This document shows, one piece after another, positions 17,246-64,000 of a DNA stretch of 64,000 bases (the stretch's first letter is position 1; every line of letters begins with the position of its first letter). The notes beneath the pieces are model-generated. The model was not told the DNA's origin. It did no database searches and was given only the letters and a program-made list of their open reading frames with translations. The position numbers were made by a program, and so were the translations under genes. The stretch covers positions 20,900,501-20,964,500 of the forward strand of contig CM027385.1 in the NCBI GenBank assembly GCA_015680905.1, read 5' to 3'. Source of the stretch: Coptis chinensis. Its lineage: Eukaryota > Streptophyta > Magnoliopsida > Ranunculales > Ranunculaceae.

Positions 17246-20100
17246 ATGAAAATATTGATGATAGTGATAGCGATCTTTGAAGAGTCCGATACATATAGGG
17301 CTTATATAGAAGACAAAGCAACATTTTTATCTATGCAGTTCAAGACATCGGACGAGGCCTACACTATTTATAATGAGTATGCCAAATCAGTTGGCTTCGG
17401 TGTTCGTAAGGATGTTTATAGAATTCATCCAAATGGAGTTGCTATTAAGCGGAGATTTGTGTGTTCATCCGAAGGTCAACGACATGCAGATAAACTCCAA
17501 TCGATGACACCCAAAAGAACACCCAGACAGGTCACTAGGTTCAATTGTAAAGCCTGCATTGTTGTTGTTTTTGATTCTGAAGCAAAGTTGTGGACTGTGA
17601 AAGAGTTTATTGGGGAACACACACATCCACTTGTACCGTATCCGAGTTCAATGTTTCTTCGGTCACATAGAAATGTGAGTCGAGAAGCGTTGGAATTTGC
17701 TACATGCCTAAATGATGTCGGTGTTCGTAAATGCCAAGTGATGGGTCACTATGCACATATAGCTGGAGGTTTCCTTAATGTTGGTTTTACGAAAAAAGAC
17801 TTGTATAACAAAATGGGAAAAGAGAGGAGAAGTCGTTGTATTGATGGCGACGCCAACACACTGCTTGCCAACTTAGAGGACAAGGTGAAGTTAGATCCTT
17901 TATTTCATTACAACTATGAGTTAAATGCGAGTGGGCAGTTAGGTTTGGGCTGTTTTTTAGGCGGATTCCACCTCCCGCCTGGATTACTGTAGCTTTGGTG
18001 ATGTGTTGTTGTTTGATTCAACGTACAGGAGCAATCGGTACCAGATGCCGATCGTTGTGTTTGCTGGAATCAACAACCACCTACAGACTATAGTTTTTGG
18101 TTTTGCTTTGATCATAAGTGAGTGCGAATTTACACTTATAAGTGGGTATTGAAATCATTTATTGACGCAATGTGTGGTGAACACCCTAAATCGGGCCATT
18201 ACCGATGGTGACGCAAATGATTCGTAAAGCTTTGAAATCTATTCTTCCGTTCGAACACCGGGCCGCTGCTCTTGGCACGTATTGAAAAATTGCATCACCA
18301 ATGTCAAAATCCCTGATTTTGCAAATGAGTTCACTCTATTATGTTTATGAAATGTTCTCGGGGAGAGTTCAAGAAAGGTGGAGACAACTAGTGGAAAAAT
18401 ACAAAGTTAGTCATAACACATGGGTGATGAAGGTACGTAAGAAAAGGGCGAAAGGGCGAAATCGTATCTTCATGGTGAGTTCTTTGGCGGTTGCGTATAA
18501 ACCAACGCCATGAGTCTATTAACTCGTTATAAGACATCATGTTAAGCCCGGATGCGCTATTTGAGCTATTTGGGAAAATGGAATTGGCGGTTGCAAATAT
18601 CCGCCACCGAGAAACGGCGAAGAGGTAAGGACCGCAACGACGAAGCCTTTCATTGGTAGCCACTTGATTGAATATGCAAAGCGCGTAATCCATCTATACT
18701 CGAAATGCTTTTTTCTTGCTTTTAGAAGCAGATTCTGGGGAGGAATCGATGTACACCGCAGAAGATAAACGTGATGTGGGTGACAATATTCGTGTATACA
18801 CCATCAGCCGTCATCTGAACAGGCAAAAAAAGACGAGTGTGGAATACAACCTTTTAGAGCAGGATGCTAGATGTTCATGTGGGCTATTTCAGTCGTTTGG
18901 ATTTCCATGTAGACATATCATTTCAGTTTACAAACACGAGGACCTTCGTGAAATACCCCAGAGCTGTTTTTTAAGGAGATGGACACGAGTTGCTAAATCT
19001 GTCATTCCAAATAACAATCCAAGTTTTTCTTCGCAGGCTGCTTCCATTATTCGTCACAGTGAGCTTATAGGGAAATGCAAGAAGATATGTTTGTGGGCCT
19101 CTCAAACAGCCACAAAACAAGAAAGCTTTTAAATCCATGTTATCATCTTTTTCTAGAGCTTCAAGGCAGTCCACAAGTTCCCTTTGAAATGCCTTATATT
19201 CCACCGTAAAGTGGTACAATGGATGGCATTCCGCCTTCTAAAGGCACCGCACCGAGGTAGAGATGCCTTTCACCCCACCTAAAACCACCCATCGTCCATT
19301 TGTTAATGATCCACCACACGAAAATCGAAGGGTAGGCCGCATAAACGTAGTAGATTGAAAGGTCGAAATGAGACAAGAAAAAAAGAAGTGTGGCCACGTG
19401 GGTATCGTCGGGCACACAAGGCCCACATGTCCACTTTTGCATCCAAACGATGGGGGTAAGTTTCTTATACCGTTGCCATATTTCACTTGTCCCGTTAACA
19501 TTAAATAGTTACAAAAGTTTGTTGATTCTGATTTGTATTCGCAATATCTTTCTTGTGGTGCACCGCTTTACGTGTCCAAGTGCTAAAGCGCAACTATGTC
19601 GAAATGCTTTGCAGGAGTTGCCGATGTGAGTGAGGATGATGATGACAAAGTTAAATAGAGATACTTGGATGTAAGTGATAATTTTTCGCGCGTTATCTTC
19701 TTTTTATAAACGCAAGAAAATGTTTCTTGTTTGTTATTTTCATGGGGTTCAAAGTAATGTTGCTTGTTTGGTGGGCGAGTGGAAGTTGGTAATGAAGCGG
19801 AGGATCTCGAAAAGACCAAGCAATGTAGCAAGTGTCGATCTACACGAGCACACAAAGTGTAGGTGTCCCGATTTGGAAGGTATGACACAATTTTTTACCG
19901 ACGTAATTTTTCTAGTAGGAGTAAACTAAACTTAGAGTGTACCATTAGAGTGACTATTTTTCTCCTGTTGAACTTATAGCGTTTCCCGTGGATGAGGTTG
20001 GGAGGAAGGTTTCGGAGAAATTCAATGTTGGAAAGTTTTATAGTGACGACGGGAGAGTCTTTTTCCGTATTACAGATGGTTGACGTTAGGAAAGAGGAGT
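17246..20100 (+). pseudogene. FAR1/MULE transposase with SWIM and CCHC knuckles, left copy (gene 1)
   Basis: The first open part (17246-17992, 248 codons) holds a FAR1 DNA-binding domain at about residues 33-130: SDEAYTIYNEYAKSVGFGVRK, FVCSSEG, NCKAC and GEHTHPL supply the Cys2-His2 pattern. The MULE core follows in several frames: FGDVLLFDSTYRSN near 17998-18040, CSWHVLKN near 18270 and KYKVSHNTWVMKV near 18400-18435. A SWIM finger CSCGLFQSFGFPCRH lies near 18871-18915. After a splice-donor-like GTAAG near 19455 there are two CCHC-like pieces (CGH..GH near 19390; CSKCRSTRAHK near 19842) and a C-terminal stretch to about 20100. FAR1-type MULEs are transposases, some domesticated as light-signalling factors. 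Several frame breaks, absent at some of the same places in the right copy, make it non-functional as read. It is the outermost of three transposase genes in this arm. Confidence 0.82.
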
Positions 20101-20104
20101 ACAA

Positions 20105-22285
20105 TGGCGCTAAGCTTTAAGAGCAGTTGTTGCTAATCTTCTAACAAGATTTTTGTAAGCATTTTTGTAATATCGCACAATGGTGAAGATTTCAAGATTG
20201 GCTTCTAAATTATTTTGTAGCGGTATCTATGGTGTTATTTTCTTATTTTCTTTGGTTTAATCAATGAAATAGCACAATATTCTATACGCTATATTGACAA
20301 GCATTGTTTGTATATTCTGTTGTTTCTTATTGTTGGGATGTTGGGGTTGTCCCTCATCAGCAGACATATGTCAGTTAGTGTGACATTGATATGTTCATAA
20401 ATGGATCTGTTCGTTCTTACAACGCCGAACAGAGGAATATGCCATAAACAGTAACATAACATTCTGGTATGACATATATAGTGTCATATCTATCAGTGAG
20501 TATCTAAAATTATCTGACATAACTCCTAGGAGGTCGGAAGATCTAAAATTATTATTGTGAATATACCTGCTGGGTTCCTCCTCGTATGATGAGGACTTGC
20601 CCGATTAGTACTAATTACAAGAATGAGATTAAGAAACCAATTCTTGATTGTAATGCGGGGGAGAAAGGGACTATGAACATCTCATTATTCATAGCTACCT
20701 AACTATGAACAATTCTACTTTCCGGTATGTTTTAGATAATCGACGCGCATACTACTTAACAATCAATGTGGAAGTCATGAGCTATGAATATTCTTTGTTC
20801 ATACCACAATTCGACTATGAACAATGATTGTTCATAGTTCGGTAGCTATGAACACTCAATGCTATGAACAATGAGTGTTGAGCTAAGAACAATGAGTGTT
20901 CATACCACAATTGACTATGACAATGATTGTTCATAGTCATGAGCTATGAACATTCTTTGTTCATACCACAATTGGACTATGAACATACCGTAAGGTTGAG
21001 CGCTTTGCAGAGGAATATGTCATATGTTAATAACACATAACATTCTAGTATGACAACAAATATAGTGCTATATCTATCTGTGATTCTTATGATATACTAC
21101 CCGAACTAATATATTATAAAAACTCACATAACATTCGAAAGTATGACATATATAGTGTCATATCTATCAATTCTAGCTATTAATACTACCAAAAGTATAA
21201 AACTCTTATTAGCATATATTATAAATAGTGACATAAAATTGAGTATGACATATATAGTGTCATATCTATCGATGAGTATCTAAAATTATCCGACATAACT
21301 CCTAGGAGGTCGGAAGATCTAAAATTATTATTGTGAATATACTCCTCCTCGTATGATGAGGACTTGCCCGATTAGTACTAATTACAAAATGAGATTAAGA
21401 AACCAATTCTTGATTGTAATGCATGGGGAGAAAGGGACTATGAACATCTCATTATTCATAGCTACCTAACTATGAACAATTCTACTTTCCGGTATGTTTC
21501 TCAGATACATATATAGTGTCATATCTATCATATAAAACTCTTAGTAGCATATATTATAATATCATATATTAGTAACATAATATTCGAAAGTATGATATAT
21601 ATAGTGTCATATCTATCCGTGATTAGACCCAACATATAAAACTCTTATTGACATATCAAATAAAAAGTGAAATAACATTCGAAAGTATGACATTTATGAG
21701 TATAGTCATATCGATTGATTGTAAATTTATGACATACTACCAAACGTAAAACTCTTATATTGAATTAAACAATTGGACCACCCATAAAGTATGATATACT
21801 TTCTGTTTATAGAACATGAGTATGATATACCATAAAGTATGCTATACTACATCCTATATGACATTTTTTATAACATATATCCATGCTTTTACAATGCAAT
21901 ACCGGGTAGTAGGTCACGTACTCTATGTTACTCTTAACATTTGTAAAACTCGTCACACCCCCCGATTGTCTCTCTACACACGGCACGTTTATTCCAAAAA
22001 AAACTGGTGCTCTCTCCACACCCCATTGTTAATATGACAATTATAACCTTAAATAACTCTCTCCACACCCCATTTTTATTAATATGACCATTATAACCTT
22101 AAAAAACTCTCTCCACACCCCATTGTAATTCAAACGAGCTCTTCACCGCATTTTTACTACTCCACCTAACACTCCTACCACTCATGCTCTCTGAAATTTC
22201 TCCCCTCCCTCCTCGTTGTTCTCTTAGGTTAGTCTTGAGTCACCCACAAAATTGTTGTTATTCCCACCAAATTTTCACTTTAAGA
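20105..22285. repeat. Palindrome-rich spacer between genes 1 and 2 (left arm)
   Basis: AT-rich DNA built from repeated modules. One ~260-bp module (CTCCTAGGAGGTCGGAAGAT, TCCTCCTCGTATGATGAGGA, GAACATCTCATTATTCATAG) occurs twice in direct orientation, at 20468-20730 and 21244-21500. Two palindrome families are scattered through it: TATGAACA(4-5)TGTTCATA at 20780-20990, and TATGACA(7)TGTCATA at 20478, 21042, 21150, 21247, 21595 and others. Near 21898 a 'TACCGGGTAGTAG..CACGT' word recurs at 26873 before gene 3. No coding sequence was recognised. Confidence 0.75.
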
Positions 22286-25161
22286 ATGGACTCATGTGTT
22301 GGAAGCAACGCTCAAGATAAATTCTCCCTTCAAAATCAAAATGATAACTTTGATTAGTGTTAAAAGTGACATGGAGTCAGCTTTAACACTACTGCAATCA
22401 AATTATTATTCGATGATGAACTTTACAACAATGTTGAAATTAGCTATCCCGATATGACCAATCATTTACAACAATTGAGGTAATAATGTAATTTGAAAGC
22501 TTGTATTTTTATTTATTTTATCAATAACTTAGCAAAAACAATTTTCGTCAATAGTATCTAAGATCAAGGGTTTACGCAGGTCTTCAAGATCGCCACTCGT
22601 TGATCCGATGGTGTTCGACAAATGGTATGACTGTTGGAGTTGTGGTTGTGATATCAAAGGTCCGATAATTCGGGACTTGGGCTAAAGACCTAGAGTTTTC
22701 TTGAGTTGCGAAAGGAGGGAAAATTTAGACCATCCATAAAGCCGAAAATATTGAACAAAAAACCAAAGAATATAGGCAATCCAATTCAAGAAATGTGGTC
22801 ATCCATTTGTGTTGAAAGGGGAATTACTTAAACGAAGGTGGATGGATCTTGAAAGTGTTATGTGTGGAACTCATAATCATACTATTGGGGAGCATCTTAT
22901 TGGTCGTGCATTCGGCCGGAAGGTTAAAAGTCAAGAAAAATTGATTGTTCAGATTTGTCTTTGAGTGGTGTTAAACCGCGTGAAATTTTACCCCTCTTGA
23001 AACAGAGATGACAATAATTTGTCAAACAAAAGCACTTTATACAATTATCGTCACAAGAATCAGTTGGTTCGGTTGAGTGGAAGAAACCAAATGCAAGAAT
23101 TTCTAAGAAATTTAGAAGAATTTGGGTACCACGAGTTTCATAGGGGATAATCCAAAGAATGTGAATGTAGAGATTTGTTGTTTGCACATCCCCAATCAAT
23201 TCATTTGGCAAAGTGTTTTCCCCGAGGTCATTGTCATGGATTGCACGCATACAAGACGAATGTCTTCAAGATGCCATTGTTTGAAGTTGTTGGGTTCACA
23301 TCCACGATGAAGACATTCGTATTGCTTTTTTGGGTATTTGGAGAGTGAGAAAGAAGGTTCTTACCTATGGGTTTTGAAGAGGTTGCGTGATATTCTGGAC
23401 TACAAAGCTACTTCTGTAAAGATAATTACGACTGATTGTGAGTTGGCACTTATGGATGCGATAGCTATAGTGTTTCCTAAAGCTGCACACTTCTTGTGTC
23501 GAAGTTCACATCGAGGAACATCGAGACAAAGGCCAAAAAAACATTTGAGAAATTTGTTGAGTATGAACAATTTATGTTTATGTTCGAAACAGTGATAATA
23601 GCTCGTACTGAAGTTAAGTACTTGGAACACCTACGTTGTTTTAAACTTGAGTAACGGAGATCATTATGGTGTTGTGGAATACATAGAAGACCCGATGGCT
23701 TTCAAGTACAAAGAAAGGTTTGTCTCGGCTTGATAGATCTCCATATGCATTTTGGTACTTCGAAAGCAACCGAATTGAAAGTATGCATTCCTCTTTGAAG
23801 AGGCATTTGGCGTTCTAGCAATAATGGTAACTTCGCGAAACTTTAATTTGATTAATAATCTCGACAAACCAAGTGACAGAAATTGAAAGTTCTTTTAATA
23901 GGAGCTTGAATCTCTTTGATCATCGTTACAAACAAAACACATATGTGCAACTTAGAGGGTACATTTCTAGAGATGCATTGGATTTGATAGCAAAAGAGCT
24001 AATAAGGTCCATTAGAGTTGGGACAGATGAAATTCGTTGTCGCCAGTTTACAAGAGTATGTATGGGCTTCCTTGTGCGCATGAGTTATGTGAAATTGTTC
24101 TAATTGGTAGGGGAAGCATCCCCTTATCTTTGATACACCCTAGGTGGAGACAGCTTAGTAGCACTCCGATTGATCTTCCTAACTTTGATATTCAGCCCGA
24201 GATTGCTCAGATTCAGAAGAAGTTTCAGTCGCTCTCAGATGAACAAAAGGTTTTGATGCTGAAAAAGTCTGTAGAACTAGGTGATCCAAAGGCAACTTTC
24301 AGGCGAGAGCCTCGGGTCAACACCAATGTGAGGGGTAGGCCACTTGGAATAAAAATTGGTGTGAAGACTTGTAAAGATAAAAGGGACACAAAGAGAGAGC
24401 CTTCAGCTTTCGAGTATACACAAACAGTTGAGGAACAAATTGTAACTCAAGAAAGCAAGAATAGTAAAGCCAAGAAGTTGGTACCATGCAAAAGAAAACC
24501 AAGAAGAACTCATCTTCAAGTGTTTGTAGATTTACCTAAAATTGGGTCTAAATGGGATGATGGGCTACGTGACTTAAATCCATTGATACGAGACTTCATT
24601 GTGGATTGGCAAGATGTTGAACCGAATGGACATTGTGGATTTAGCGCGATTGCACGATGCTTAGGGTCTAATGGAGGTGATGCATGGATTACTGTGAGGG
24701 CTCTTATGTTGACAGAGTTGATTTCCCATGAGGCAGATTATACTTCAATGATGGGTGGAGAAGAACGAAAAGAAGCGATCAAGAAAATCTACGATGTACA
24801 GTTCCATATACGATGAACCCCAAAGAATGGTTTGAACTTCCTTCAATGGGATTTTTAGCCGCTAATACTTTTCAAAGTCCTTGTCGCCATTGGGAGAGAA
24901 AGAATGTATGTCATACTTTCCTTTGTGGATCGCTCCCCGATCCAACTTCGTGTCCGGATAAGCGCAATAGGCCACATTGGAGGAGGCACACATTTTGTGA
25001 AACTCGTGCTTGAAGATGATAGTCCTATTCCGCCACTTGCTCCAGGGTGGGAGTCATTTGCATGGACAGAAGCTTGGGATTGGGCAACTATAATGGAACC
25101 AAGGATCGTGAAGTGGTATAAAAGGGTTCCAAAAAATGTTATGGATTTAGACCTTTCGTAA
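22286..25161 (+). pseudogene. MULE transposase with C-terminal OTU protease domain, left copy (gene 2)
   Basis: A short first exon (ATG 22286, donor near 22481) precedes the main exon from about 22580. Order of domains: FAR1-like zinc cluster (around 22700-22910, frame-broken here, clean in the right copy); MULE transposase core (catalytic-type block TTDCELAL near 23430; ESMHSSLKRHL near 23790); a Cys-rich MYGLPCAHELC finger near 24060; a basic linker; and an OTU cysteine-protease domain with DWQDVEPNGHCGFSAIA near 24604-24655 (Cys nucleophile in GHC) and GGGTHFVKLV near 24980 (His). Open stretches are 24037-24816 and 24904-25161. The MULE part would cut and move DNA. OTU domains remove ubiquitin-like tags, and their role in a transposase protein is not established here. 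Several small indels break the frame, whereas the right copy is more continuous over the MULE core. Confidence 0.85.
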
Positions 25162-25164
25162 CTA

Positions 25165-25860
25165 TCCTTGTACTGACAGGGTTTTTTGGCATTAATATCT
25201 ATTTTGTGTATGTGTATATAGTATATATACTGTCATAAATTGCAGAATGTATTAGAATATGTCAGAAATGGTATTAACTAGTTTTTGTTAAGTGCTCTGT
25301 AAATAGCATTAAAATGCAAGAATATGGTAAGTGCTTTGTCGGTTTAAGGTAGGAACCAAAGGCGTATCGAGCTTCAGGCCGGTGAGCTTTATCACTTGTG
25401 TTGTCACAAAAGAACACCAGCTGCCTTTACAAAGACAAAGTGAACGAGGGACCCGATGGGTTCTAGAACAAGCTATCTTAATTCGTAATAAGAATTCAGG
25501 ACTGGCGAACTAGCAAGGATATTCCTGTCATACAGTAAATGCAAAGAGATTTTTTTTTCTCTTGTAAACACAAGTCAGAGTATGTTTATGATGCTCTGCA
25601 GTGTACTCTGAATCCTGTTTTTATAACTAATTTTGGCACTTGTTTGAACTTGCATTAATTTAGTGAATTGGCAATGGAACGAGCAACCCAGAGTCCAATA
25701 CACATCTTAATCTCTGACAAATGTTTCTTAATCACGTTTTGCACAAACTTTTGTTTTTCAAACATTTTTTATAAAGTTTGGGATATCATATGTAGCAATG
25801 ACTTCATGGAGATTACAATTATCATTAAACCCTAACTATCAATGTTCTAAACCGTCATTT
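25165..25860. other. Gene 2 downstream flank
   Basis: Short AT-rich 3' flank of gene 2 followed by DNA mirrored at 56290-56975. No protein or RNA gene was recognised. Confidence 0.5.
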
Positions 25861-25865
25861 TAAAC

Positions 25866-25994
25866 ATGCCTCCACGAACACGAGGAGGATCAAGCACCCA
25901 AACCCGAAAAAGAAAATGTAACGAAGTGCCACAAATTCCCATTGTTGACAACTCCTCCACTAGAAATTTCATTGCCAACCATCGTAGGCTTAGA
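25866..25994 (+). CDS. Orphan first exon, basic N-terminus (left copy)
   Basis: ATG 25866 opens 43 codons rich in Arg, Lys and Thr (PPRTRGGSSTQTRKRKCNE) that end at a donor-like GTAGGTTC at 25995. It is mirrored at 56152-56280, where a frame shift changes the start of the peptide. It precedes gene 3, which lacks an N-terminus, so it may be the surviving first exon of gene 3 with the FAR1-domain exon lost. The GTGAGCGGAG repeat sits directly after it. No family was recognised. Confidence 0.35.
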
Positions 25995-26039
25995 GTAGGT
26001 TCATCTCTCTTTCATTTTGATTTAGTTATGACATTTTTC

Positions 26040-26235
26040 ATGCTTGTCGAGTGAGCGGAGCGAACGATCTTGGCAGAAGGGGGGGTATGGACAAAAACAA
26101 AGTTGGTTGGTTTCTGTCTCTGTCCTCAACTTCTCTCTCATTTTTTCTTCGCCCCCAATACCCTTTCTCCTTCACCCAACTCTCTCTCTCCCAGTTCACT
26201 CCCCCCACCGCCATGCAGTATACTAGTTGAATGTT
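26040..26235 (+). repeat. GTGAGCGGAG short repeat, left-arm copy
   Basis: About 190 bp with short inverted ends GTGAGCGGAGCGAAC and, on the far side, GCAGTATACTAGT. The interior is pyrimidine-rich, with AAAGTTGGTTGGTTTCTGTC near 26090. Mirror copy at 55915-56100, and a third, diverged copy at 51866-52076 in the right arm only. It behaves as a small non-autonomous mobile repeat. Open frames across it reflect the CT-rich composition. Confidence 0.65.
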
Positions 26236-26369
26236 CTTAGAATTTGTTGTTCTCTGCCAAAATTTTATAACTGGTCGAAATATATTTTATACCCTTATCT
26301 TATCTTCACTCTCTTATCTTATCTTCAATGCTACTCTATTGTCCTCCATACTACATAGTGGACTTTAAG

Positions 26370-26560
26370 TGTTCATACTCCTAGTGGCTCAAACAGGGGG
26401 GTATCTCAAATTGACCCATGAACATTCAGTGTTCATACCATTGAATTATGAACAGTGAATGTTCATACTCTTGTTGGACTATGAACAATGAATGTTCATA
26501 CTCTTGTCGGACTATGAACAACGAATGTTCATACTCTTGTTGGACAGCTTATACATTGTC
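26370..26560. repeat. Cluster of TGAACA/TGTTCA palindromes (left arm)
   Basis: About five palindromes of the form TATGAACA-n-TGTTCATA spaced about 35 bp apart (for example near 26415, 26450, 26485 and 26515). Mirrored at 55590-55730. Confidence 0.8.
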
Positions 26561-26564
26561 GTAT

Positions 26565-27035
26565 ATAAACTTTCTTTGTTATATAGTGTTGTGCATAGCT
26601 TATTCAGTGTCGTCCATATAATGTCGTATATAAGCTCTGCGAGTAGATATGACACTATAACTGTCATACTTATATGTTATGTCACTTCTTACAAAACTGA
26701 CGGGTCGGTATGTCACTTACTTTAAGTGACATACTTTCGCAAGGTAAAAACTCCAATCATTGACATCTCACTGCATATGTCGCATGCTTCCACAATGCCA
26801 TTTCTAGTTGCATATATTTGGCATAAAGTATGATATACTTTCTGTTTATAAAACTATCCTTAATTCTTATGTACCGGGTAGTAGACCACGTGACTCTGTA
26901 CTCTATGAAATTTTGCATAACATACTATACTATGTATGTTAATTAAAAGCATATTTACAATTATTTTTACATAATACATTCGTACCGCGTTGGGTATGTA
27001 CTTTGTTATGTATGACGGTATGCTATGATATTTTC
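26565..27035. repeat. Palindrome-rich spacer before gene 3 (left arm)
   Basis: Short inverted words of the TGACATA/TATGTCA and ATACTATACTATGTATGTTA types, plus a 'TACCGGGTAGTAG..CACGT' word (26873) shared with the gene 1-2 spacer. No coding sequence. Confidence 0.6.
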
Positions 27036-27039
27036 CATG

Positions 27040-27240
27040 ACATACTATACTATGTATGTTATTTATAATAACATACATCGTTATTTTTACATAGTACCTT
27101 CGTAAGGTGTTACTTATGACATACTTTCTTGGCTATGGACTATTCGGATGACATACTATCATCAACATAATGATATAGACAATTATTTGTTTATACTAAT
27201 TTTTAGTGAAGCGTTTTTAATGACATACTTTACTACGTAT
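27040..27240 (+). repeat. Recurring ~190-bp block, copy before gene 3 (left arm)
   Basis: Contains ACATAGTACCTTCG, GGTGTTACTTATGACATACT, ATTCGGATGACATACTATCA and ACTAATTTTTAGTGAA in that order. The same ordered block is found at 30340-30530 and (first words missing) 35640-35780, and in reverse complement at 51480-51665 and 54890-55110. It abuts gene 3. Confidence 0.8.
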
Positions 27241-27242
27241 GA

Positions 27243-29064: not shown

Positions 29065-29470
29065 TTTGATATAAGTTTAGTGTTTAATGTTATTTGATTT
29101 ATTATAATGTTTAATTTGATAAAAATATATATATAATATATATTTTGACTTCCAAATCTTTATTTCAGATATTGATTTTGAATCCCAACATTTCTCAAAC
29201 AAAAGGGAGGAAGAAGAAAGCGAGAGATGGAAAATCCCCGAGAAATAGCCCTAAACAATCCGGGAAGAATGTGTAGAAACTGTGGAAAATAAGACTCGAG
29301 AAATTGTCCAAGAGAAAAATAAGACGTAATTTGTGAAATGTAAGTATTTTTGGTTGCTAGGTTGCTTGGTTTGTAGGTTAATACATAATCTATGATATGT
29401 GTTAGAAGGGTGCACATGCTTTGTGCATTTTGGTATTTTTCCTCACCCTCTACTTGATATATGAAAGTGA
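29065..29470. other. Gene 3 downstream flank
   Basis: AT-rich 3' flank mirrored at 52680-53094. The antisense open frame 29160-29510 and its mirror frames have no family signature and look like symmetry by-products. Confidence 0.5.
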
Positions 29471-30530: not shown

Positions 30531-30534
30531 TAAT

Positions 30535-50335: not shown

Positions 50336-50339
50336 AAAC

Positions 50340-51074: not shown

Positions 51075-51078
<4 letters not shown>

Positions 51079-51453: not shown

Positions 51454-51479
51454 AAAGCATTATACGTAGTAAAATATGT

Positions 51480-52076: not shown

Positions 52077-52449
52077 ATTAACTCAAAACCAAAACTGAAA
52101 ACTCTAATACAGACTACCAGCCTTTATATAGGCGAAATACCCTGATTACCACAAAACTTGAAAATTTTCAAAAATGGAAAGTTTTGGGATAACAACATAT
52201 TAAGAAACTACTAATCAAAATATAACTAACATAGCTGGCCAAATAAAAAACGGACTCTCCTATCAAAAGATATAGCAAAAACAAAACTTTCCTAAAACGG
52301 CAAAAACGTGATTTATGAGAATTTCTAAACGATGGATTTAAGGCCCGAGAGGGTGGTGCCCACGGCAAAGCAGTGGGTTATGCTTATTTTGACGTTTCTG
52401 ATCAAATATGGCCGCGTCCATGTCTTTCCGACTTTGTTGCCCGCTTTTC

Positions 52450-52680
52450 CAGTTCATTGACATATGCCAAGTTCATTGACATATGCATTGGCAACCTGTA
52501 CTGCATCACATATGCCAAGTTCAATGACATATGCATTGGCTAATGCATCATCAATGGTTGTTCACATGAACAATGAGTGTTCATAGGTCATGTTAAGATA
52601 TGAACAATGAGTGTTCATAGCTCATATTGGGGTTTGAACAGTGATTGTTCATACCCCAAATAGGTATGAACAACCACAAC
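52450..52680. repeat. Palindrome cluster after gene 3 (right arm)
   Basis: Mirror of 29470-29720: CATATGCCAAGTTCATTGAC repeats followed by TGAACA/TGTTCA palindromes near 52562, 52600 and 52635. Confidence 0.75.
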
Positions 52681-53093
52681 ATAATCACTTTCATATATCA
52701 AGTAGAGGGTCAGAAAAATACCAAAATGCACAAAGCATGTGCACCCTTCTAACACATATCATAGATTATGTATTAACCTACAAACCAAGCAACCTAGCAA
52801 CCAAAAATACTTACATTTCACAAATTATGTCTTATTTTTCTCTTGGACAATTTCTCGAGTCTTATTTTCCACGGTTTCTACACATTCTTCCCGGGATTGT
52901 TTAGGGCTATTTCTCCTGGGGATTTCCATCTCTCTGCTTTCTTCTTCCTCCCTTTTGTTTGAGAAATGTTGGGATTCAAAATCAATATCTGAAATAAAGA
53001 TTTGGAAGTCAAAATATATATTATATATATATTTTTATCAAATTAAACATTATAATAAATCAAATAACATTAAACACTAAACCTATATCAAAT

Positions 53094-54900
53094 TAAACAT
53101 TAATATCACAATCATAACCTGTGAGCTGAGGTATCAAAGAAAGACTCTTCAACTTCATTATCTTCGTCTCCTTCGTTCGAAGCTATATTCAACGTTGAGA
53201 CACGCTTAGCCATTTCATCCATCTTTTCTATAAAATATGAATAAGCCTCAACACTACTCCCCGCATCGTAAGCCACTTGAGAAGCAACCTTGATACAATG
53301 AGCCACTCTGAAAAGTTCATGGTTTTCATGGCCGGCCACTAATCCAGTATGAAACTCCGCTCTATACGTGTGTGCCTTTTGCATCCACCGCTTCAAAAGA
53401 AAATGCCTTGGAATCTCTTCGATTTCGTAACGTTGAAAAATCTTTAACATGTGACCACAAAGTAACCCCATAAACTGAAAATACTTACATTCACAGTCTC
53501 CCTCTAAGGTTCCTCTATTGAAACTCACTTTCCAAATGGACTTCTTCTGCGGGTCTCTAAATTTCACCATGTAGCTTCCGGTTCCATTGTTGACAATCTC
53601 GTCCCCATCAATTTTGTACTCCATCTTTGCCTTCTCTAATTGCTCCTTAAATATATTGAATGCATTAATCGTATAGACCTTCGCAAATGCATAAGGAGGA
53701 AAGCATCTTTAGCCACAATTAAGTGAACTATGCTCGGTCGCGTAATCAAGCATCTCTTTCATTCCTAGCAATCAAAGCCAAAGATCTCTCATTACCATGT
53801 ACAAACTCCATCAGCATAGTGCTTTCGAATTTACTGAATTGGTCGTAAACGAGAATTCATCGATTCACTCCTCCCAAATCATTATGCATACCGCAAAAAT
53901 ATGTCACCGAGATAACAAGGAACCCATTTCTCCCGCATATTATACATTTTTCTGTCAACCAAGGATTTGCAGACAACTCATTCTTCTCTATTATTGTACA
54001 CCGTCTTCTTTCAAAACCAGCAATCTTATACGAGGAGAGACCCTAGCAAAAGGCCAGAAGCAATGGTGGGAGAATAGACCCAATTTTGTTTATAGGTTAG
54101 AGAATCAACACTCTACTTATTTCAGATTTATTTCTTAAAAATTTAGGAAATGTATGTTGGAGTGGTCTACCCAGGGCCCTCACAAAATATAATCTTGTTT
54201 TTCTTTGCTATCTAATACATACAATTACCCTTTAGCAAAAAAAAATACGAGGAGAGAAATAGTGTTATTCAGGTCAGTTACCAGTGTCTCAATTTTAGTA
54301 AAGGATAGCTTCTCTTGAAATTTCTGCATAATATGCCAAAGACAGTAACGATGACGAGTATCAGGGAACACTTTTGCAATGGCTGCAGTCATCGCTCTAT
54401 CCTGGTAAGTGATGATTGCGGTTAGCGACCTGACCACCCATAGCTGCAAGCCGGGCCTTAAACAACCATATGAATGTATCTTCGTCTCATCAAGTAACAA
54501 ATAGCGCAACCAAATAACTGAATCGACCGCATCATGCTGATTGACTCGATAAAAAGGGGCAAAGGCATAGAGTATGCATTCGATGCGTTATGTGGTATCA
54601 AAAGAGACAACATCCCCCAATACTCATCTTGCACTCGAAACCTCCCATCAACCCGAAAAAAGTTTATCGCAATCCCATTTTGATCTAGATCAATAGCGTA
54701 GTAAAACCGGGGATTCTCGCACTCTTCTCGCATAAAATATTTAAGCACGGCAGTTGCATCACCTTCTTTAGGCATCTTTCTAGTCAAACCATAATGATGG
54801 TTCCAAAGAATCCTTATTTGTAATGCTAACCCAACTTCTTCCCCACTAAAAACAGCTTTAACTTTTTACCGACAGTAAACCGTGTTCACCAAAAATCCTA
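53094..54900 (-). pseudogene. FAR1-RELATED-type MULE/SWIM transposase, right copy (gene 3)
   Basis: Reads leftward from about 54900. Visible blocks: RKMPKEGDATAVLKYFMREE (54787 onward), FYYAIDLDQNG, FFRVDGRFRVQDEY, RAMTAAIAKVFPDTRHRYCL with LWHIMQKFQ, then the SINE-like insertion, then EYKIDGDEIVNNG, the SWIM finger CECKYFQFMGLLCGH and a tail ending SNEGDEDNEVEESFFDTSAH. The last 170 codons (53112-53624) are open, more continuous than in the left copy. Frame breaks elsewhere differ from those in the left arm. No FAR1 domain precedes it. It is probably defective, since the SINE splits the MULE core in both copies. Confidence 0.82.
54041..54245 (+). mobile_element. SINE-like retroposon in gene 3 (right arm)
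   Basis: Begins CCCTAGCAAAAGGCCAGAAG, ends in an A-run, and is flanked by TACGAGGAGAGA at 54029-54040 and 54246-54257, the same target duplication as in the left arm. Being at the identical site, it was present before the arms were duplicated. Confidence 0.8.
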
Positions 54901-55110
54901 GCTCATAATGTAGTAAAGTATGTCATTAAAAACGCTTCACTAAAAATTAGTATAAACAAATAATTGTCTATATCATTATGTTGATGATAGTATGTCATCC
55001 GAATAGTCCATAGCCAAGAAAGTATGTCATAAGTAACACCTTACGAAGGTACTATGTAAAAATAACGATGTATGTAATAACATACATAGTATAGTATGTC
55101 ATGGAAAATA
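54890..55110 (-). repeat. Recurring ~190-bp block, right-arm copy beside gene 3
   Basis: Reverse complement of 27040-27240 (AGTATGTCATCCGAATAGTC, AAGTATGTCATAAGTAACAC, TACGAAGGTACTATGT). Confidence 0.8.
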
Positions 55111-55590
55111 TCATAGCATACCGTCATACATAACAAAGTACATACCCAACGCTGTGATGCAGATGTATTATGTAAAAATAATTGTAAATATGCTTTTAAT
55201 TAACATACATAGTATAGTATGTTATGCAAAATTTCATAGAGTACAGAGTAATGGTCTACTACCCGTACATAAGAATTAAGGATAGTTTTATAAACGTAAA
55301 GTATATAATACTTTATGCCAAATATATGCAACTAGAAATGGCATTGTGGAAGCATCGACATATGCAGTGAGATGTCAACGATTGGAGTTTTACCTTTAAA
55401 GTATGTCACTTAAAGTAAGTGACATACCGATTCGTCGATTTTGTAAGAAGTGACATAACATATAAGTATGACAGTTTATAGTGTCATATCTACTCATGAG
55501 AGCTTATATCACGACATTATATGGACGACACTCAATAAGCTATGCACAACACTATATAACAAAGAAAGTTTATATCTACGACAATGTATA
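55110..55590. repeat. Palindrome-rich spacer before gene 3 (right arm)
   Basis: Mirror of 26565-27035; TGACATA/TATGTCA words and CATAGTATAGTATG-type words, no coding sequence. Confidence 0.6.
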
Positions 55591-55735
55591 AGCTGTCCAA
55601 CAAGAGTATGAACATTCGTTGTTCATAGTCCGACAAGAGTATGAACATTCATTGTTCATAGTCCAACAAGAGTATGAACATTCACTGTTCATAATTTCAA
55701 TGGTATGAACACTGAATGTTCATGGGTCAATTTGA
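55590..55735. repeat. Cluster of TGAACA/TGTTCA palindromes (right arm)
   Basis: Mirror of 26370-26560, with four to five palindromes separated by AGTCC(A/G)ACAAGAGT linkers. Confidence 0.8.
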
Positions 55736-55914
55736 GATACCCCCCTGTTTGAGCCACTAGGAGTATGAACACTTAAAGTCCACTATGTAGTATGGAGGAC
55801 AATAGAGTAGCATTGAAGATAAGATAAGAGAGTGAAGATAAGATAAGGGTATAAAATATATTTCGACCAGTTATAAAATTTTGGCAGAGAACAACAAATT
55901 CTAAGAACATTCAA

Positions 55915-56100
55915 CTAGTATACTGCATGGCAGTGGGGAGTGAGCGGAGCTGCGGGGAGAGAGAGAGTTGGGTGAAGGAGAAAGGGTATTGGGGGCGAAG
56001 AAAAAATGAGAGAGAAGTTGAGGACAGAGACAGAAACCAACCAACTTGGTTTTGTCCATACCATACCCCTTCGCCAAGATCGTTCGCTCCGCTCACTCGA
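55915..56100 (-). repeat. GTGAGCGGAG short repeat, right-arm copy
   Basis: Mirror of 26040-26235: ACTAGTATACTGCATGGCAG, GTGAGCGGAG, AAACCAACCAACTTGG, TTCGCTCCGCTCACTCGAC. Confidence 0.65.
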
Positions 56101-56151
56101 CAAGCATGAAAAATGTCATAACTAAATCAAAATGAAAGAGAGATGAACCTA

Positions 56152-56280
56152 CTCTAAGCCTACGATGGTTGGCAATGAAATTTCTAGTGGAGGAGTTGTC
56201 AACAATGGGAATTTGTGGCACTTCGTTACATTTTCTTTTTCGGGTTTGGGTGCTTGATCCTCCTCGTGTTCGGGAGGCAT
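56152..56280 (-). CDS. Orphan first exon, right copy
   Basis: Mirror of 25866-25994. ATG at 56280; small differences from the left arm change the frame after the fourth codon (MPPEHEEDQAPKPEKENVTK instead of the basic version). Unknown family; possible lost start of gene 3. Confidence 0.3.
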
Positions 56281-56981
56281 GTTTAAAATGACGGTTTTAG
56301 AACATTGATAGTTAGGGTTTAATGATAATTGTAATCTCCATGAAGTCATTGCTACATATGATATCCCAAACTTTTATAAAAATGTTTGAAAAACAAAAGT
56401 TTGTGCAAAACGTGATTAAGAAACATTTGTCAGAGATTAAGATGTGTATTGGACTCTGGGTTGCTCGTTCCATTGCCAATTCACTAAATTAATGCAAGTT
56501 CAAACAAGTGCCAAAATTAGTTATAAAAAACAGATTCAGAGTACACATCGCAGAGCATCATAAACATACTCGACTTGTGTTTACAAGAGAAAAAAAAAAA
56601 TCTCTTTGCATTTCTTGTATGACAGAATATCCTTGCTAGTTCGCCAAATCCTGAATTCTTATTACTTAATTAAGATAGCTTGTTCTAGAACCCATCAGTC
56701 CCTCGTTCACTTTGTCTTTGTAAAAGGCAGGTGTTCTTTTGTGACAACACAAGTGATAAAGCTCACCGCCCGAAGCTCGATCGCCTTTGGTTCCTACCTT
56801 AAACCGACAAAGCACTTACCATATTCTTGCATTTTAATGCTATTTACAGAGCACTTAACAAAAACTAGTTAATACCATTTCTGACATATTCTAATACATT
56901 CTGCAATTTATGACAGTATATACTATATACACATACACAAAATAGATATTAATGCCAAAAACCCAATGGAGACAAGGATAG

Positions 56982-59847
56982 TTACGAAAGGTCTAAATCC
57001 ATAACATTTTTTGGAACCCTTTTATACCACTTCATGATCCTTGGTTCCATTATAGTTGCCCAATCCCAAGCTTCTGTCCATGCAAATGACTCCCACCCTG
57101 GAGCAAGTGGCGGAATAGGACTATCATCTTCAAGCACGAGTTTCACAAAATGTGTGCCTCCTCCAATGTGGCCTATTGCCGCTATCCGACACGAAGTTGG
57201 ATCGGGGAGCAGTCCACAAAGGAAAGTATGACATACATTCTTTCTCTCCAATGACGACAAGGACACACTGAAAAGTATTAGCGGCTAAAAATCCCATTGA
57301 AGGAAGTTCAAACCATTCTTTGGGGTTCATCGTTAGATTTGTCTTGATCGCTTCTTTTCGTTCTTCTCCACCCATCATTGAAGTATAATCTGCCTCATGG
57401 GAAATCAACTCTGTTAACATAAGAGCCCTCACAGTAATCCATGCATCACCTCCATTAGTCCCTAAGCATCGTGCAATCGCGCTAAATCCACAATGTCCAT
57501 TCGGTTCAACATCTTGCCAATCCACAATGAAGTCTCAGATCAATGGATTTAAGTCACGAGCCCATCATCCCATTTAGACCCAATTTTAGGTAAATCTACA
57601 AACACTTGAAGATGAGTTCTTCTTGGTTTTCTTTTGCATGGTACCAACTTCTTGGCTTTACTATTCTTGCTTTCTTGAGTTACAATTTGTTCCTCAACTG
57701 TTTGTGCATACTCGAAAGTGAAGGCTCTCTTTGTGTCCCTTTTATCTTTACAAGTCTTCACACCAATTTTTATTCCAGGTGGCCTACCCTCACATTGGTG
57801 TTGACCCGAGGCTCTCGCCTGAAAGTTGCCTTTGGATCACCTAGTTCTACAGACTTTTTCAGCATCAAAACCTTTTGTTCATCTGAGAGCGACTGAAACT
57901 TCTTCTGAATCTGAGCAATCTCGGGCTGAATATCAAAGTTAGGAAGATCAATCGGAGTGCTACTAAGCTGTCTCCACCTAGGGTGTATCAAAGATAAGGG
58001 GATGCTTCCCCTACCAATTAGAACAATTTCACATAACTCATGCGCACAAGGAAGCCCATACATACTCTTGTAAACACAACGACAACGAATTTCATCTGTC
58101 CCAACTCTAACAGACCTTATTAGCTCTTTTGCTATCAAATCCAATGCATCTCTAGAAATGTACCCTCTAAGTTGCACATATGTGTTTTGTTTGTAACGAT
58201 GATCCCAGAGATTCAAGCTCCTATTAAAAGAACTTTCAATTTCTGTCACTTGGTTTGTCAGGAGATTATTAATCAAATTAAAGTTTCGGCAGAAGTTACC
58301 ATTATTGCTAGAACGCAAATGCCTCTTCAAAGAGGAATGCATACTTTCAATTCGGTTAACTGCTCAAGTACCAAAATGCATATGGAGATCTATCCAAGCC
58401 GAGACAAACCTTTCTTTGTACTTCGAAAGCCACTGGTCTTCTATGTATTCCATAACACCATAATGATCTCCGTACTCAAGTTTAAAACAACGTAGGTGTT
58501 CCAAGTACTCAACTTCAGTACGAGCTGTTATCACTGTTTCGAACATAAACATAAATTGTTCATACTCAACAAATTTCTCAAATGTTTTTTTGGCCTTTGT
58601 CTCGATGTTCCTCCTGATGTGAACTCGACACAAGAAGTGTGCAGCTTTAGGAAACACTATAGCTATCGCATTCATAAGTGCCAACTCACAATCAGTCGTA
58701 ATTATCTTTACAGAAGTAGCTTTGTAGTCTAGAATATCACGCAACCTCTTCAAAACCCATAGGTAAGAACCTTCTTTCTCACTCTCCAAATACCCAAAAG
58801 CAATACAGAATGTCTTCATCGTGGATGTGAACCCAACAACTTCAAACAATGGCATCTTGAAGACATTCGTCTTGTACGTGCAATCCATGACAATGACCTC
58901 GGGAAAACACTTTGCCAAATGAATTGATTGGGGATATGCAAACAACAAATCTCTACATTCACCTGTTACTGGATTATCCCTATGAAACTCTGTGTACCCA
59001 AATTCTTCTAAATTTCTTAGAAATTCTTGCATTTGGTTTCTTCCACTCAACCGAACCAACTGATTCTTGTGACGATAATTGTATAAAGTGCTTTTGTTTG
59101 ACAAATTATTGTCATCTCTGCTTCAAGAGGGGTAAAATTTCACGCGGTTTAACACCACTCAAAGACAAATCCTGAACAATCAATTTTTCTTCAGCTTTTA
59201 ACCTTCCGACGAATGCACGACCAATAAGATGCTCCCCAATAGTATGATTATGAGTTCCACACATAACACTCAGTATCCATCCACCTTCGTTTCGTAATTC
59301 CCCTTTCAACACAAATGGACAGCCACATTTCTTCGAACTGGATTGCCTATATTCTTTGGTTTTTTTGTTCAATATTTTCGGCTTTATGGATGGTCTAAAT
59401 TTTCCACTCCTTTCGCAACTCAATAAAACTCTAGGTCTTAAGCCCAAGTCCCTAATTATCAGACCTTGATATCACAACCACAACTCCAACAAATCATACC
59501 AACCGCAGCCGAACACCATCGGATCAACGAGTGACGATCTTCGAAGACCTGCGTAAACCCTTGATCTTAGATACTATTGACGAAAATTGTTTTTTGCTAA
59601 GTTATTGATAAAATAAATAAAAAATACAAGCTTTCAAATTACATTATTACCTCAATTGTTGTAAATGATTCGGTCATATCGGGATAGCTAATTTCAACAT
59701 TGTTGTAAAGTTCATCATCGGAATAATAATTTGATTGCAGTAGTGTTAAAGCTGACTCCATGTCACTTTTAACACTAATCAAAGTTATCATTTTGATTTT
59801 GGCGGGAGAATTTATCTTGAACGTTGCTTCCAAAGACATGAGTCCAT
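56982..59847 (-). pseudogene. MULE transposase with C-terminal OTU protease domain, right copy (gene 2)
   Basis: The better preserved copy. First exon ATG near 59847; donor near 59650. The FAR1-like zinc cluster is open at 59447-59112 (CERSGKFR, KKCGCPFVLKGEL, VMCGTHNHTIGEHLIG, VKPREILPLLKQR). The MULE core is open for 246 codons at 59104-58364: SGRNQMQEFLRNLEEFGY, VMDCTYKTN (first Asp), TTDCELALMNAI (second Asp), FLCRVHIRRNIE, with NRIESMHSSLKRHL (Glu) after a break. 58342-57770 continues with CRCVYKSMYGLPCAHELC. OTU: NGHCGFSAIARCLG (57500) and GGGTHFVKLVLEDD (57130), ending at 56982. Breaks lie near 58360, 57770, 57545 and 57300-57230. The fragmentary left copy is broken at other places. 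Confidence 0.87.
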
Positions 59848-59849
59848 TT

Positions 59850-61990
59850 TTAAAGTGAAAATTTGGTGGGAATAACAACAATTTTGTGGGTGACTCAAGA
59901 CTAACCTAAGAGAACAACAGAGGGAGGGGGAGAAATTTCAGAGAGCATGAGTGGTAGGAGTGTTCGTGGAGTAGTAAGTACGGTGAAGAGCTCGTTTGAA
60001 TTACAATGGGGTGTGGAGAGAGTTTTTTAAGGTTATAATGGTCATATTAATAAAAATGGGGTGTGGAGAGAGTTATTTAAGGTTATAATTGTCATATTAA
60101 CAATGGGGTGTGGAGAGAGCACCAGTTTTTTTTGGAATAAACGTGCCGTGTGTAGAGAGACAATCGGGGGGTGTGACGAGTTTTACAAATGTTAAGAGTA
60201 ACATAGGGTACGTGACCTACTACCCGGTATTGCATTGTAAAAGCATGGATATATGTTATAAAAAATGTCATATAGGATGTAGTATAGCATACTTTATGGT
60301 ATATCATACTCATGTTCTATAAACAGAAAGTATATCATACTTTATGGGTGGTCCAATTGTTTAATTCAATATAAGAGTTTTACGTTTGGTAGTATGTCAT
60401 AAGCGCTACAATCACTGATATGACTATACTCATAAATGTCATACTCGAATGTTATTTCACTTTTTATTTGATATGTCAATAAGAGTTTTATATGTTGGGT
60501 CTAATCACAGATAGATATGACACTATATATATCATACTCGAATATTATGTTACTAATATATGATATTATAATATATGCTACTAAGAGTTTTATATGATAG
60601 ATATGACACTATATATGTATACAGAAACATACCGGAAAGTAGAATTGTTCATAGTTCGGTAGCTATGAATAATGAGATGTTCATAGTCCCTTTCTCCCCA
60701 CGCATTACAATCAAGAATTGGTTTCTTAATCTCATTACTGTAATTAGTACTAATCAGGCAAGTCCTCATCATACGAGGAGGAGTATATTCACAATAATAA
60801 TTTTAGATCTTCCGACCTCCTAGGAGTTATGTCAGATAATTTTAGATACTCACTGATAGATATGACACTATATATGTCATACTCAATTTTTATGTCACTA
60901 TTTATAATATATGCTAATAAGAGTTTTATACTTTTGGTAGTATTAATAGCGCTAGAATCGCTGATAGATATGACACTATATATGTCATACTCGAATGTTA
61001 TGTGAGTTTTTATAATATATTCGCTTGGTAGTATATCATAAGAATCACAGATAGATATAGCACTATATTTGTTGTCATACTAGAATGTTATGTGTTATTA
61101 ACATATGACATATTCCTCTGCAAAGCTCCAACCTTACATATGTTCATAGTCCAATTGTGGTATGAACAAAGAATGTTCATAGCTCATGACTATGAACAAT
61201 CATTGTCATAGTCAATTGTGGTATGAACACTCATTGTTCTTAGCTCAACACTCATTGTTCATAGCATTGAGTGTTCATAGCTTCTGAACTATGAACAATC
61301 ATTGTTCATAGTCGAATTGTGGTATGAACAAAGAATATTCATAGCTCATGACTTCCACATTGATTGTTAGAGTAATGCGTCAAAGATATCTGAAAACATA
61401 CCGAAAGTAGAATTGTTCATAGTTCGGTAGCTATGAATAATGAGATGTTCATAGTCCCTTTCTCCCCACGATTACAATCAAGAATTGGTTTCTTAATCTC
61501 ATTACCGTAATTAGTACTAATCGTGGCAAGTCCTCATCATACGAGGAGGAACCAGCAGGTATATTCACAATAATAATTTTAGATCTTCCGACCTCCTAGG
61601 AGTTATGTCAGATAATTTTAGATACTCACTGATAGATATGACACTATATATGTCATACCAGAATGTTATGTTACTGTTTATGGCATATTCCTCGTTACTC
61701 TACCGTAAGAAATCGAACGAGATCCATTTATGAACATATCAATGTCACACTAACTGACATATGTCTGCTGATGAGGGACAACCCCAACATCCCAACAATA
61801 AGAAACAACAGAATATACAAACAATGCTTGTCAATATAGCGTATAGAATATTGTGCTATTTCATTGATTAAACCAAAGAAAATAAGAAAATAACACCATA
61901 GATACCGCTACAAAATAATTTAGAAGCCAATCTTGAAATCTTCACCATTGTGCGATATTACAAAAATGCTTACAAAAATCTTGTTAGAAG
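59850..61990. repeat. Palindrome-rich spacer between genes 2 and 1 (right arm)
   Basis: Mirror of 20105-22285. Two direct copies of the ~260-bp module (about 60650-60910 and 61410-61670), TGACA(7)TGTCA palindromes near 60510, 60605, 60860, 60975 and 61640, and a TGAACA/TGTTCA cluster at 61140-61340. GGGGTGTGGAGAGAG is repeated three times at 60008, 60058 and 60105. No coding sequence. Confidence 0.75.
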
Positions 61991-61994
61991 ATTA

Positions 61995-64000
61995 GCAACA
62001 ATCTGCTCTAAAGCTTAGCAGAGATTGTACTCCTCTTTCCTAACGCCAACCATCCGTAATAATGGAAAAAAAGACTCTCCCGTCGTCACTATAAAACTTT
62101 CCAACATTGAATTTCTCCTCAAACCTTCCTCCCAACCTCATCCACGGAAACGCTATAAGTTCAACAGAGAAAAAATAGTCACTCTAATGGTACACTCTAA
62201 GTTTAGTTTACTCCCTACTAGAAAAATTACGCCAAGAAAAATTGTGTCATACCTTCCAAATCGGGACACCTACACTTTGTGTGCTCCGTAGATCGACACT
62301 TGCTACATTGCTTGGTCTTTCGAGATCCCTCCCCGCTTCATTACCAACTTCCACTCACGCCACCAAACAAGCAACATTACTTTGAACCCCATGAAAATAA
62401 CAAACAAGAAACATTTTCTTGCGTTTATAAAAAGAAGATAACGCCAAAAAATTATCACTTACATCCAAGATCTCTATTTAACCCGTCATCATCCTCACTC
62501 ACATCGGCAACTCCTGCGCACGCTTTCGACATAGTTAAGCGCTTTTAGCACTTGGACACGTAAAGCGATTGCACCACAAGAAAGATATTGACGAATACAA
62601 ATCAGAATCAACAAACTTTTGTAACTATTTAATGTTAACGGACAAGTGAAATATGGCAACGGTATAAGAAACTTACCCCCATCGTTTGGATGCAAAAGTG
62701 GACATGTGGGCCTTGTGTGCCCGGACGATACCACAATGGCCACACTTTTTTCTTGTCTCATTCTGACCTTTCAATCTACTACGTTTATGCGGCCTACCCT
62801 TCGATTTTACGTGTGGTGGATCATTAACAAATGGACGATGGGTGGTTTTAGGTGGGGTGAAAGGCATCTCTACCTCGGCGGTGCCTTTAGAAGACGGAAT
62901 GCCATCCATTGTACCACTTTCTGGTGGAATATAAGGCATTTCAAAGGGAACTTGTGGACTGCCTTCAGAAGCTCTAGAAAAAGATGATAACATGGATTTA
63001 AAAGCTTCACTGTTTGTGGCTGTTTGAGAGGCCCACAAACATATCTTCTTGCATTTCCCTATAAGCTCACTGTGACGAATAATGGAAGCAGCCTGCGAAG
63101 AAAAACTTGGATTGTTATTTGGAATGACAGATTTAGCAACTCGTGTCCATCTCCTTAAAAACAGCTCACGGGGTATTTCCACGAAGGTCCTCGTGTTTGT
63201 AAACTGAAATGATATGTCTACATGGAAATCCAAACGAACTGAAATAGCCCACATGAACATCTAGCATCCTGCGCTTCTAAAAGGTTGTATTCCACACTCG
63301 CCTTTTTGCCTGTTCAGATGACGGCTGATGGTGTATACACGAATATTGTCACCCACATCACGTTTATCTTCTGCAGTGTACATCGATTCCTCCTGTAACT
63401 GCTTCCTAAAAGCAAGAAAAGCAGCTCGAGTATAGATGGATTCTGCCTGCTTTGCATATTCAATCAAGTGGCTACCAATGAAAGGCTTCGTCGTTGCAGT
63501 CCTTACCTCTTCTTCGTGCTCTCGGTGACGGATATTTGCAACTGCCAATTCCATTTTCCCAAATAGCTCAAACAGCTGCATCCCGGGCTTAACATGATGT
63601 CTTATAACAGAGTTAATAGACTCGCAACGTGGGTTGCTTCTGCAACCGCCAAAGAACTCACCATGAAGATACGATTCTGCCCACCTCGCCCGTTTCTTCT
63701 GTACCTTCATCACCCATGTGTTATGACTAACTTTGTATTTTTCCACTAGCTGTCTCCACCTTTCTTCGAACTCTCCCCGAGAACATTTCATAAACATAAT
63801 AGAGCTGAACTCTGTTGCAAATCCGAGGATTTTTGACATTGGTGATGCAATTTTTCAATACGTGCCAAGAGCACGCGGCCGGTGTTTCAATCTGGAAGAA
63901 TAGATTTCAAAGCTTTACGAATCGGCCGCTATCACCATCAGTAATGACTGATTTAGGGTGTTCACCACACATTGCGTCATAAATGATTTCAATACCCACT
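61995..64000 (-). pseudogene. FAR1/MULE transposase with SWIM and CCHC knuckles, right copy (gene 1, partial)
   Basis: Reads leftward from beyond the window end, so the FAR1 domain is outside. 63839-63261 is open for 192 codons: RGEFEERWRQLVEKYKVSHN, ESYLHGEFFGGC, CESINSVIRHHVKPGMQLFE. 63260-62673 is open for 195 codons and runs from FLRRWTRVAKSVIPNNN through a basic KSKGRPHKRSRLKGQNETRK and CGHCGIVRAHKAHMS, a knuckle-like motif. The SWIM region (about 63270-63200) is frame-broken here, while it is intact in the left copy. Further exon-like pieces reach about 62025. Confidence 0.82.

Follow-up and report, generated by a model that had tools for sequence, protein, structure and literature searches.

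We analysed a window of 64,000 bases from Coptis chinensis (assembly GCA_015680905.1, contig CM027385.1, positions 20,900,501 to 20,964,500 of the forward strand), which contains no N and has a G+C content of 36%. The window holds a giant inverted repeat: two long arms mirror each other around a spacer of about 19 kb, and each arm carries three transposase genes of the Mutator-like element (MULE) and FAR1 type. A comparison of the window with itself by blastn, described here from the 80 longest matches, pairs 18141-31478 with 64000-50462 in three collinear inverted blocks, namely 18141-30080 / 64000-52076 (12,100 columns, 95.0% identity), 30131-30935 / 51866-51058 (95.9%), and 30961-31478 / 50992-50462 (92.0%), all three with a printed E of 0.0. 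Paired positions add up to 82,141 on the outer side and to 81,940 on the inner side. Because the match opens exactly at base 64000, the window breaks off before the outer end of the right arm, and the visible arms are at least 13.3 kb long. The spacer itself (31479-50461) has no long inverted match among these 80. What is mirrored includes the genes, the DNA between them, and minisatellites (22010-22124 / 60005-60119, 26447-26545 / 55595-55693, and 29502-29589 / 52566-52653), as fits long collinear inverted copies that take in intergenic DNA. The right arm is about 159 bases longer at 51867-52075, and a GA repeat is also longer there. A preliminary description of this DNA had reported a giant inverted repeat around a ~19 kb spacer, with paired coordinates summing to ~82.0-82.14 kb, small repeats recurring in reverse, and a match still going at the last base, all of which the alignments bear out. 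Within the left arm there is also a 290-bp direct duplication (20444-20738 and 21221-21507, 92%), which has a mirrored counterpart in the right arm (60625-60905 / 61394-61681) and therefore probably predates the inverted duplication.

Since the left-arm genes lie on the plus strand and the right-arm genes on the minus strand, the MULE genes are convergent (Table 1). By Pfam, gene 1 has FAR1 and SWIM domains, gene 2 has FAR1 (below the cut-off) and MULE, and gene 3 has MULE and SWIM; all three domains occur together in no single gene. The left copy of gene 1 has its FAR1 domain in the frame 17246-17992 (E 2.9e-19) and its SWIM finger at 18716-19132 (E 2.2e-08), and the two long frames of its right copy (63264-63854 and 62676-63260) had no Pfam match. 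For gene 2, the right copy carries a FAR1 remnant (59115-59471, E 8.4e-05, below the Pfam cut-off) and a MULE transposase domain (58364-59104, E 3.3e-24); its frames 57133-57534 and 57773-58363 had no Pfam match, and neither of the two frames scanned in the left copy (24034-24813 and 24862-25161) had a significant one. The right copy of gene 3 has a MULE domain (54228-54587, E 1.9e-11) and a SWIM finger (53115-53708, E 8.7e-06). Gene frames lacking a Pfam match were placed by alignment to the other arm. At the C-terminus of gene 2 (57130-57534) the motif NGHCGFSAIA is visible by eye, which we take, partly from familiar motifs, to be that of an OTU-like cysteine protease; Pfam returned nothing for this piece even at E = 10. 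Among solved structures, neither the MULE-domain piece of gene 2 (best E 0.14) nor its C-terminal piece (0.056) had a significant match. Viral contigs were scanned for relatives of the window's proteins; one scan gave no match, and in the other, three stretches were returned, none of which encoded a relative.

Seen in pieces across the three genes and both arms, the domains recall the N-terminal FAR1 domain, MULE transposase domain, and SWIM finger of Jittery and other FAR1-type Mutator-like elements (PMC6446971). Unlike those elements, the arms hold several such genes each, and termini were identified for none of them. A look for the termini of a single MULE in the left arm, around gene 2 and in two other stretches, produced no clean terminal inverted repeat (TIR) among the 25 of 110 pairs viewed, and the inverted matches around gene 2 (20445-21615 versus 26406-26694) are largely short palindromic minisatellite units.

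Table 1. Features of the mirrored arms, their inner ends, and the spacer, in window coordinates
Feature	Positions	Strand	Basis
Left arm (visible part)	18141..31478	+	self-blastn, global alignment
Right arm, cut by window end	50462..64000	-	self-blastn, global alignment
Spacer of 18,983 bases, with short dispersed repeats and a satellite-like array of a 55-bp unit	31479..50461		self-blastn, repeat listing
MULE gene 1, left copy; straddles visible arm start	17246..19480	+	FAR1 and SWIM, Pfam
MULE gene 1, right copy, cut by window end	62650..64000	-	alignment to left copy, common frame
MULE gene 2, left copy; frame switches frequent as far as ~24.06 kb	22900..25161	+	alignment to right copy
MULE gene 2, right copy	57130..59471	-	FAR1 remnant and MULE domain, Pfam
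MULE gene 3, left copy	28108..29090	+	SWIM finger 28174-28809, E 8.9e-06, Pfam
MULE gene 3, right copy	53112..54587	-	MULE domain and SWIM, Pfam
Dispersed-repeat copy at left arm inner end; arm match stops inside its 34-bp tandem array (31414-31483)	31254..31583	+	self-blastn, repeat listing
Array of the same 34-bp kind at right arm inner end; continues into minisatellite 49928-50340	50345..50543	-	repeat listing
Third copy of inner-end repeat, in spacer, direct to left-arm copy, 86.7% to 31254-31583	33885..34193	+	self-blastn
Right-arm surplus between blocks 1 and 2: 209 bases versus 50 in left arm (30081-30130)	51867..52075	-	self-blastn

Both arms thus end on the inside in tandem arrays of one dispersed repeat, and the minisatellite next to the right inner end is of a kind also present within the arms. 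A palindromic minisatellite family of 31-34 bp units (TATGAACA...TGTTCATA) occurs throughout the arms, and also next to the right inner end (20782-20986, 26410-26545, 29502-29589, and 49928-50340). Within the spacer, several blocks of a diverged 55-bp unit form a satellite-like array at 40898-43548, and the single spacer open reading frame scanned (33183-33476) had no Pfam match.

The apparent 95% identity of the arms is misleading, as an unusually high proportion of their differences are small gaps. One global alignment has 249 substitutions and 312 gap events beside 12,847 identical columns; 191 of the gaps span a single base, and 286 have lengths that are not multiples of three. Counted by substitutions only, the arms are 97-98% identical across seven alignment scorings. 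For comparison, 17 repeat pairs were aligned with the same scoring as the global alignment, and seven of these lie wholly outside the arms, with substitution-to-gap ratios of 2.88, 3.0, 3.5, 6.5, 3.0, 3.33, and, for a pair in the spacer, 1.46 (two near 14.6 kb overlap). These control pairs were selected from the blast list and are more diverged than the arms. In each of the seven scorings, five arm segments (~12.1 kb) have 0.79-1.67 substitutions per gap versus 2.87-7.10 in six of the seven outside pairs pooled, a 34-base pair being omitted (Fisher p < 1e-18 each time). When pooled under one scoring, the arms up to 31250 have 233 substitutions and 303 gaps versus 257 and 83 in six outside pairs (Fisher p = 3e-21), and adding the seventh, spacer pair brings the controls to 276 and 96 (Fisher p = 2e-20). 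A short left-right pair (21221-21507 / 60905-60625) has a ratio of 2.33, and a neighbouring one of 0.14. In untreated Arabidopsis mutation-accumulation samples, single-nucleotide variants and insertions or deletions stand at 31 to 8 and 60 to 10 (PMC8145854). Error confined to homopolymers can be ruled out as the source of the gaps, with 90 of the 191 one-base gaps at a base outside a run.

We read both arms jointly by dynamic programming, in which any gap could be charged to either arm, with codon tables that excluded the gene under test in the gene runs and the full table in the non-coding runs. Breaks common to both arms numbered 1, 0, and 2 in genes 1 to 3, versus 5-8 in three antisense runs and 5-12 in ten non-coding runs. 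Private frame-affecting gap columns, on the other hand, numbered 15 to 37 per gene per arm, with totals of 85 on the left and 83 on the right (columns rather than events, one 18-base gap included). Frame-breaking gaps are equally dense in coding and non-coding arm DNA (94 in 4255 and 184 in 8618 aligned bases, respectively; Fisher p = 0.80). Each copy is therefore interrupted at sites of its own, regardless of coding, within an otherwise nearly intact gene pattern, and from this near-intact common frame with private breaks we infer that the arms are most likely unpolished long-read consensus. Read as single sequences, genes 1 and 2 have 12 and 11 frame switches in the left arm and 6 and 6 in the right, so that the left arm looks worse by this reading and near-even with the right by the joint one; left gene 1, with 12 switches in 1340 bases, is not far from the 6-16 per 961 bases of shuffled sequence, which puts the single-sequence method close to its limit there. 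Poisson chances of zero breaks in the FAR1 stretch (~4e-4) or in the Pfam-supported flank segments (~6e-4) were set aside because frame breaks are clumped. Substitutions at third codon positions (23 of 43 in gene 1, 7 of 24 in gene 2, and 5 of 18 in gene 3) were also considered as a sign of selection and rejected as a general one, since the excess appears in gene 1 but not in genes 2 and 3.

The same single-sequence reading has a bearing on the outer end of the left arm. In gene 1 no switch occurs over 17240-17926, and switches then follow at 17927, 17977, and 18123. Clean stretches of 720 bases are found in the arm genes only in left gene 2 (1.7% of 1320 windows), and in none of the other five gene-arm sets. 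A frame that is clean up to ~17.93 kb and broken beyond suggests that gene 1 contains the start of the duplicated block of low quality, near 17.9 kb. The left arm would then have its outer end somewhere from about 17.9 to 18.14 kb, and the mirror would stop shortly past base 64000. If so, there is a hint that the arm ends inside MULE gene 1 and not at a transposon terminus.

Some of the substitutions, by contrast with the gaps, look real. Transitions at CG or CHG sites account for 95 of 152, versus 597 of 2302 left-arm cytosines in such sites (26% background; p = 3e-21), and this bias is the trace that methylated transposon DNA is expected to leave as it decays. It could be mimicked by nanopore miscalls at methylated cytosines, but these should hit both copies alike. 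Together with the ~159 extra bases and the longer GA repeat of the right arm, these transitions indicate that the arms probably derive from two sequences that really differ, whether paralogues or alleles. With CG and CHG transitions removed, 154 substitutions are left in 13,096 columns (~1.2%), and some of these are probably errors as well. The transitions are also lopsided, with left C and right T in 57 cases versus the reverse in 23, and left G and right A in 38 versus the reverse in 34; decay may have gone further in the right arm, or miscalls may be more frequent on one strand.

Our preferred reading is that a MULE cluster in a plant nuclear genome underwent inverted segmental duplication fairly recently, with repeat-borne inner junctions, and we put its probability at about 0.6. 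Inverted segmental duplications are a known kind of rearrangement, and the likeness lies in two collinear, opposite copies of a multi-gene block with inner ends in dispersed repeats; here, the outer junction is beyond the window and the base sequence is too error-laden for dating. At least 13.3 kb of DNA with three MULE/FAR1-type transposase genes would have been copied in opposite orientation ~19 kb away. Given the tandem arrays of a dispersed repeat at both inner junctions, template switching or break repair mediated by the repeat would be the likely route. Most of the small gaps would probably be residual long-read errors left after polishing, as polishing reads may not be uniquely placeable in duplicated DNA. 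The presence of the inner-end repeat at both arms and once in the spacer, in a window without N, also counts for an inverted duplication. The arms themselves would be decaying, probably methylated transposon DNA, and to the duplication we assign no function. Of the two readings that the preliminary description had offered, a segmental duplication that trapped a MULE cluster agrees with the three different MULE-family genes and the inner ends in dispersed-repeat arrays, whereas a giant element has gained nothing positive beyond its transposase genes. Its statement that known Mutator-like TIRs are much shorter than these arms holds against a survey range of 14-500 bp and a table reaching 640 bp (PMC6446971).

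Several results weigh against an inverted duplication or against the error component in it. The outer junction is beyond the window. One outside pair, 45624-45962 / 47968-48333, reaches just 1.46 substitutions per gap, and ratios of 1.4-1.85 occur in three pairings of an arm copy with a spacer copy, so part of the gap excess may sit outside the arms. Gap counts depend on scoring: with 579 substitutions and 174 gap runs in the core, an initial MAFFT alignment had more substitutions and fewer gaps, which is why seven scorings were compared. In addition, wider, untrimmed gene ranges needed 1, 1, and 3 common breaks, with one stop in gene 3 shared by the arms; a right-arm stop in gene 2, found with the wider ranges, persists after trimming. 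Any near-identical duplication, true or false, could produce such poor polishing, and it is equally expected of a false one.

This last point leads to the principal rival, an assembly artefact, a caveat of the preliminary description that is still live. Here the arms would be two haplotypes, or two under-collapsed copies, of one locus, misjoined in inverted orientation through a tandem array. We regard this as unlikely but as a competitor to be taken seriously. Many of the arm differences resemble raw-read error, misjoins would be easy in the tandem arrays where the inner ends lie, and the roughly twofold excess of single-sequence frame switches on the left (12 versus 6 and 11 versus 6) is what an attractor of mapped reads might leave, although the almost even split of frame-affecting columns in the joint reading makes unequal quality not firm. 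False duplications are described as attracting mapped reads, and one haplotype may stay of lower quality (Vertebrate Genomes paper, PMC8081667). The heterotype and homotype false duplications of that paper resemble our locus in being duplicated assembly blocks with copies that seem under-polished, but here the block is inverted, with a long unmirrored spacer, no N, and real differences between copies. Inverted arms around 19 kb of unmirrored DNA need a chimeric join and not merely a retained haplotig. The CG and CHG transitions and the 159 extra bases likewise oppose a pure copy of one haplotype, though they are compatible with a second allele.

Two further readings would give the locus an activity of its own. 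That it is a natural inverted repeat of three convergent MULE genes that silences several FAR1-type MULE families, or else a giant composite element made mobile by its long arms, seems to us very improbable. In the first form it would be a silencing locus like Mu killer, maintained by selection, in which convergent transposase copies would yield double-stranded RNA and small interfering RNAs that silence relatives in trans, and selection of this sort is slightly less probable again. Mu killer of maize is a partial inverted duplication of mudrA (PMC3440606), and convergent genes and inverted transposase sequence are present here too. The inverted mudrA part of Mu killer is ~1.3 kb, around a centre unsequenced as far as that paper describes it, and its proposed hairpin RNA is ~4 kb, with short antisense transcripts offered as an alternative route (PMC3440606); our arms are at least 13.3 kb long and 19 kb apart, and such a spacer makes a single hairpin transcript improbable. 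A true inverted duplication could also silence as a side effect, without selection.

The least probable reading is a single giant Mutator-like element of ~46 kb or more with the arms as its TIRs, which has on its side the MULE transposase genes inside the repeats (Pfam MULE domains at E 3.3e-24 and 1.9e-11) and against it arms at least 13.3 kb long, about 20 times the longest TIR (640 bp) in the survey table cited above and outside its surveyed range, three different MULE genes per arm that suggest a cluster, and a first frame switch at 17927 in the middle of gene 1, which hints that the block ends within a gene and not at a terminus. Such an element is not absurd, given MULEs with tandem TIRs of more than 1 kb in total (PMC3310237) and Teratorn, a giant piggyBac/herpesvirus DNA transposon of fish with long inverted repeats (PMC6431247). 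In contrast to Teratorn, no virus-like genes, terminus, or shared copy were seen here within the 64-kb window, and no plant MULE with arms of this size was recognised by title or abstract in the partly covered literature on giant MULEs and long inverted repeats.

To the left of the arms lies a host gene on the plus strand with a TADA2A-like domain at 7690-7971 (E 4.1e-19, Pfam), a weaker continuation at 9090-9479 (E 0.0018), and a SWIRM domain at 13273-13482 (E 0.00094), the latter two below the cut-off; the piece 12548-12955 had no Pfam match. This is presumably an ADA2-like gene (7690-13482), a name that we base partly on familiar motifs. No frame break is visible by eye in those of its exons that can be recognised, and it lies ~4 kb left of the MULE cluster. 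Beside it, an imperfect inverted repeat (3396-5642 / 5965-3755, 72%) lies between direct repeats at 2433-2946 and 6951-7476 (82%), and 2433-7476 is perhaps a composite or LTR-flanked foldback element. Across the window ARAGORN found no tRNA, and Rfam gave nothing at gathering scores.

These results serve mostly as a caution, as the 5% divergence between the copies is probably in large part consensus error. Ages, pseudogene calls, and TIR arguments built on the divergence of the arms would accordingly mislead. If the duplication is real, the window holds a natural long inverted repeat of transposase genes, the kind of locus known in maize to start the silencing of Mutator elements (PMC3440606).

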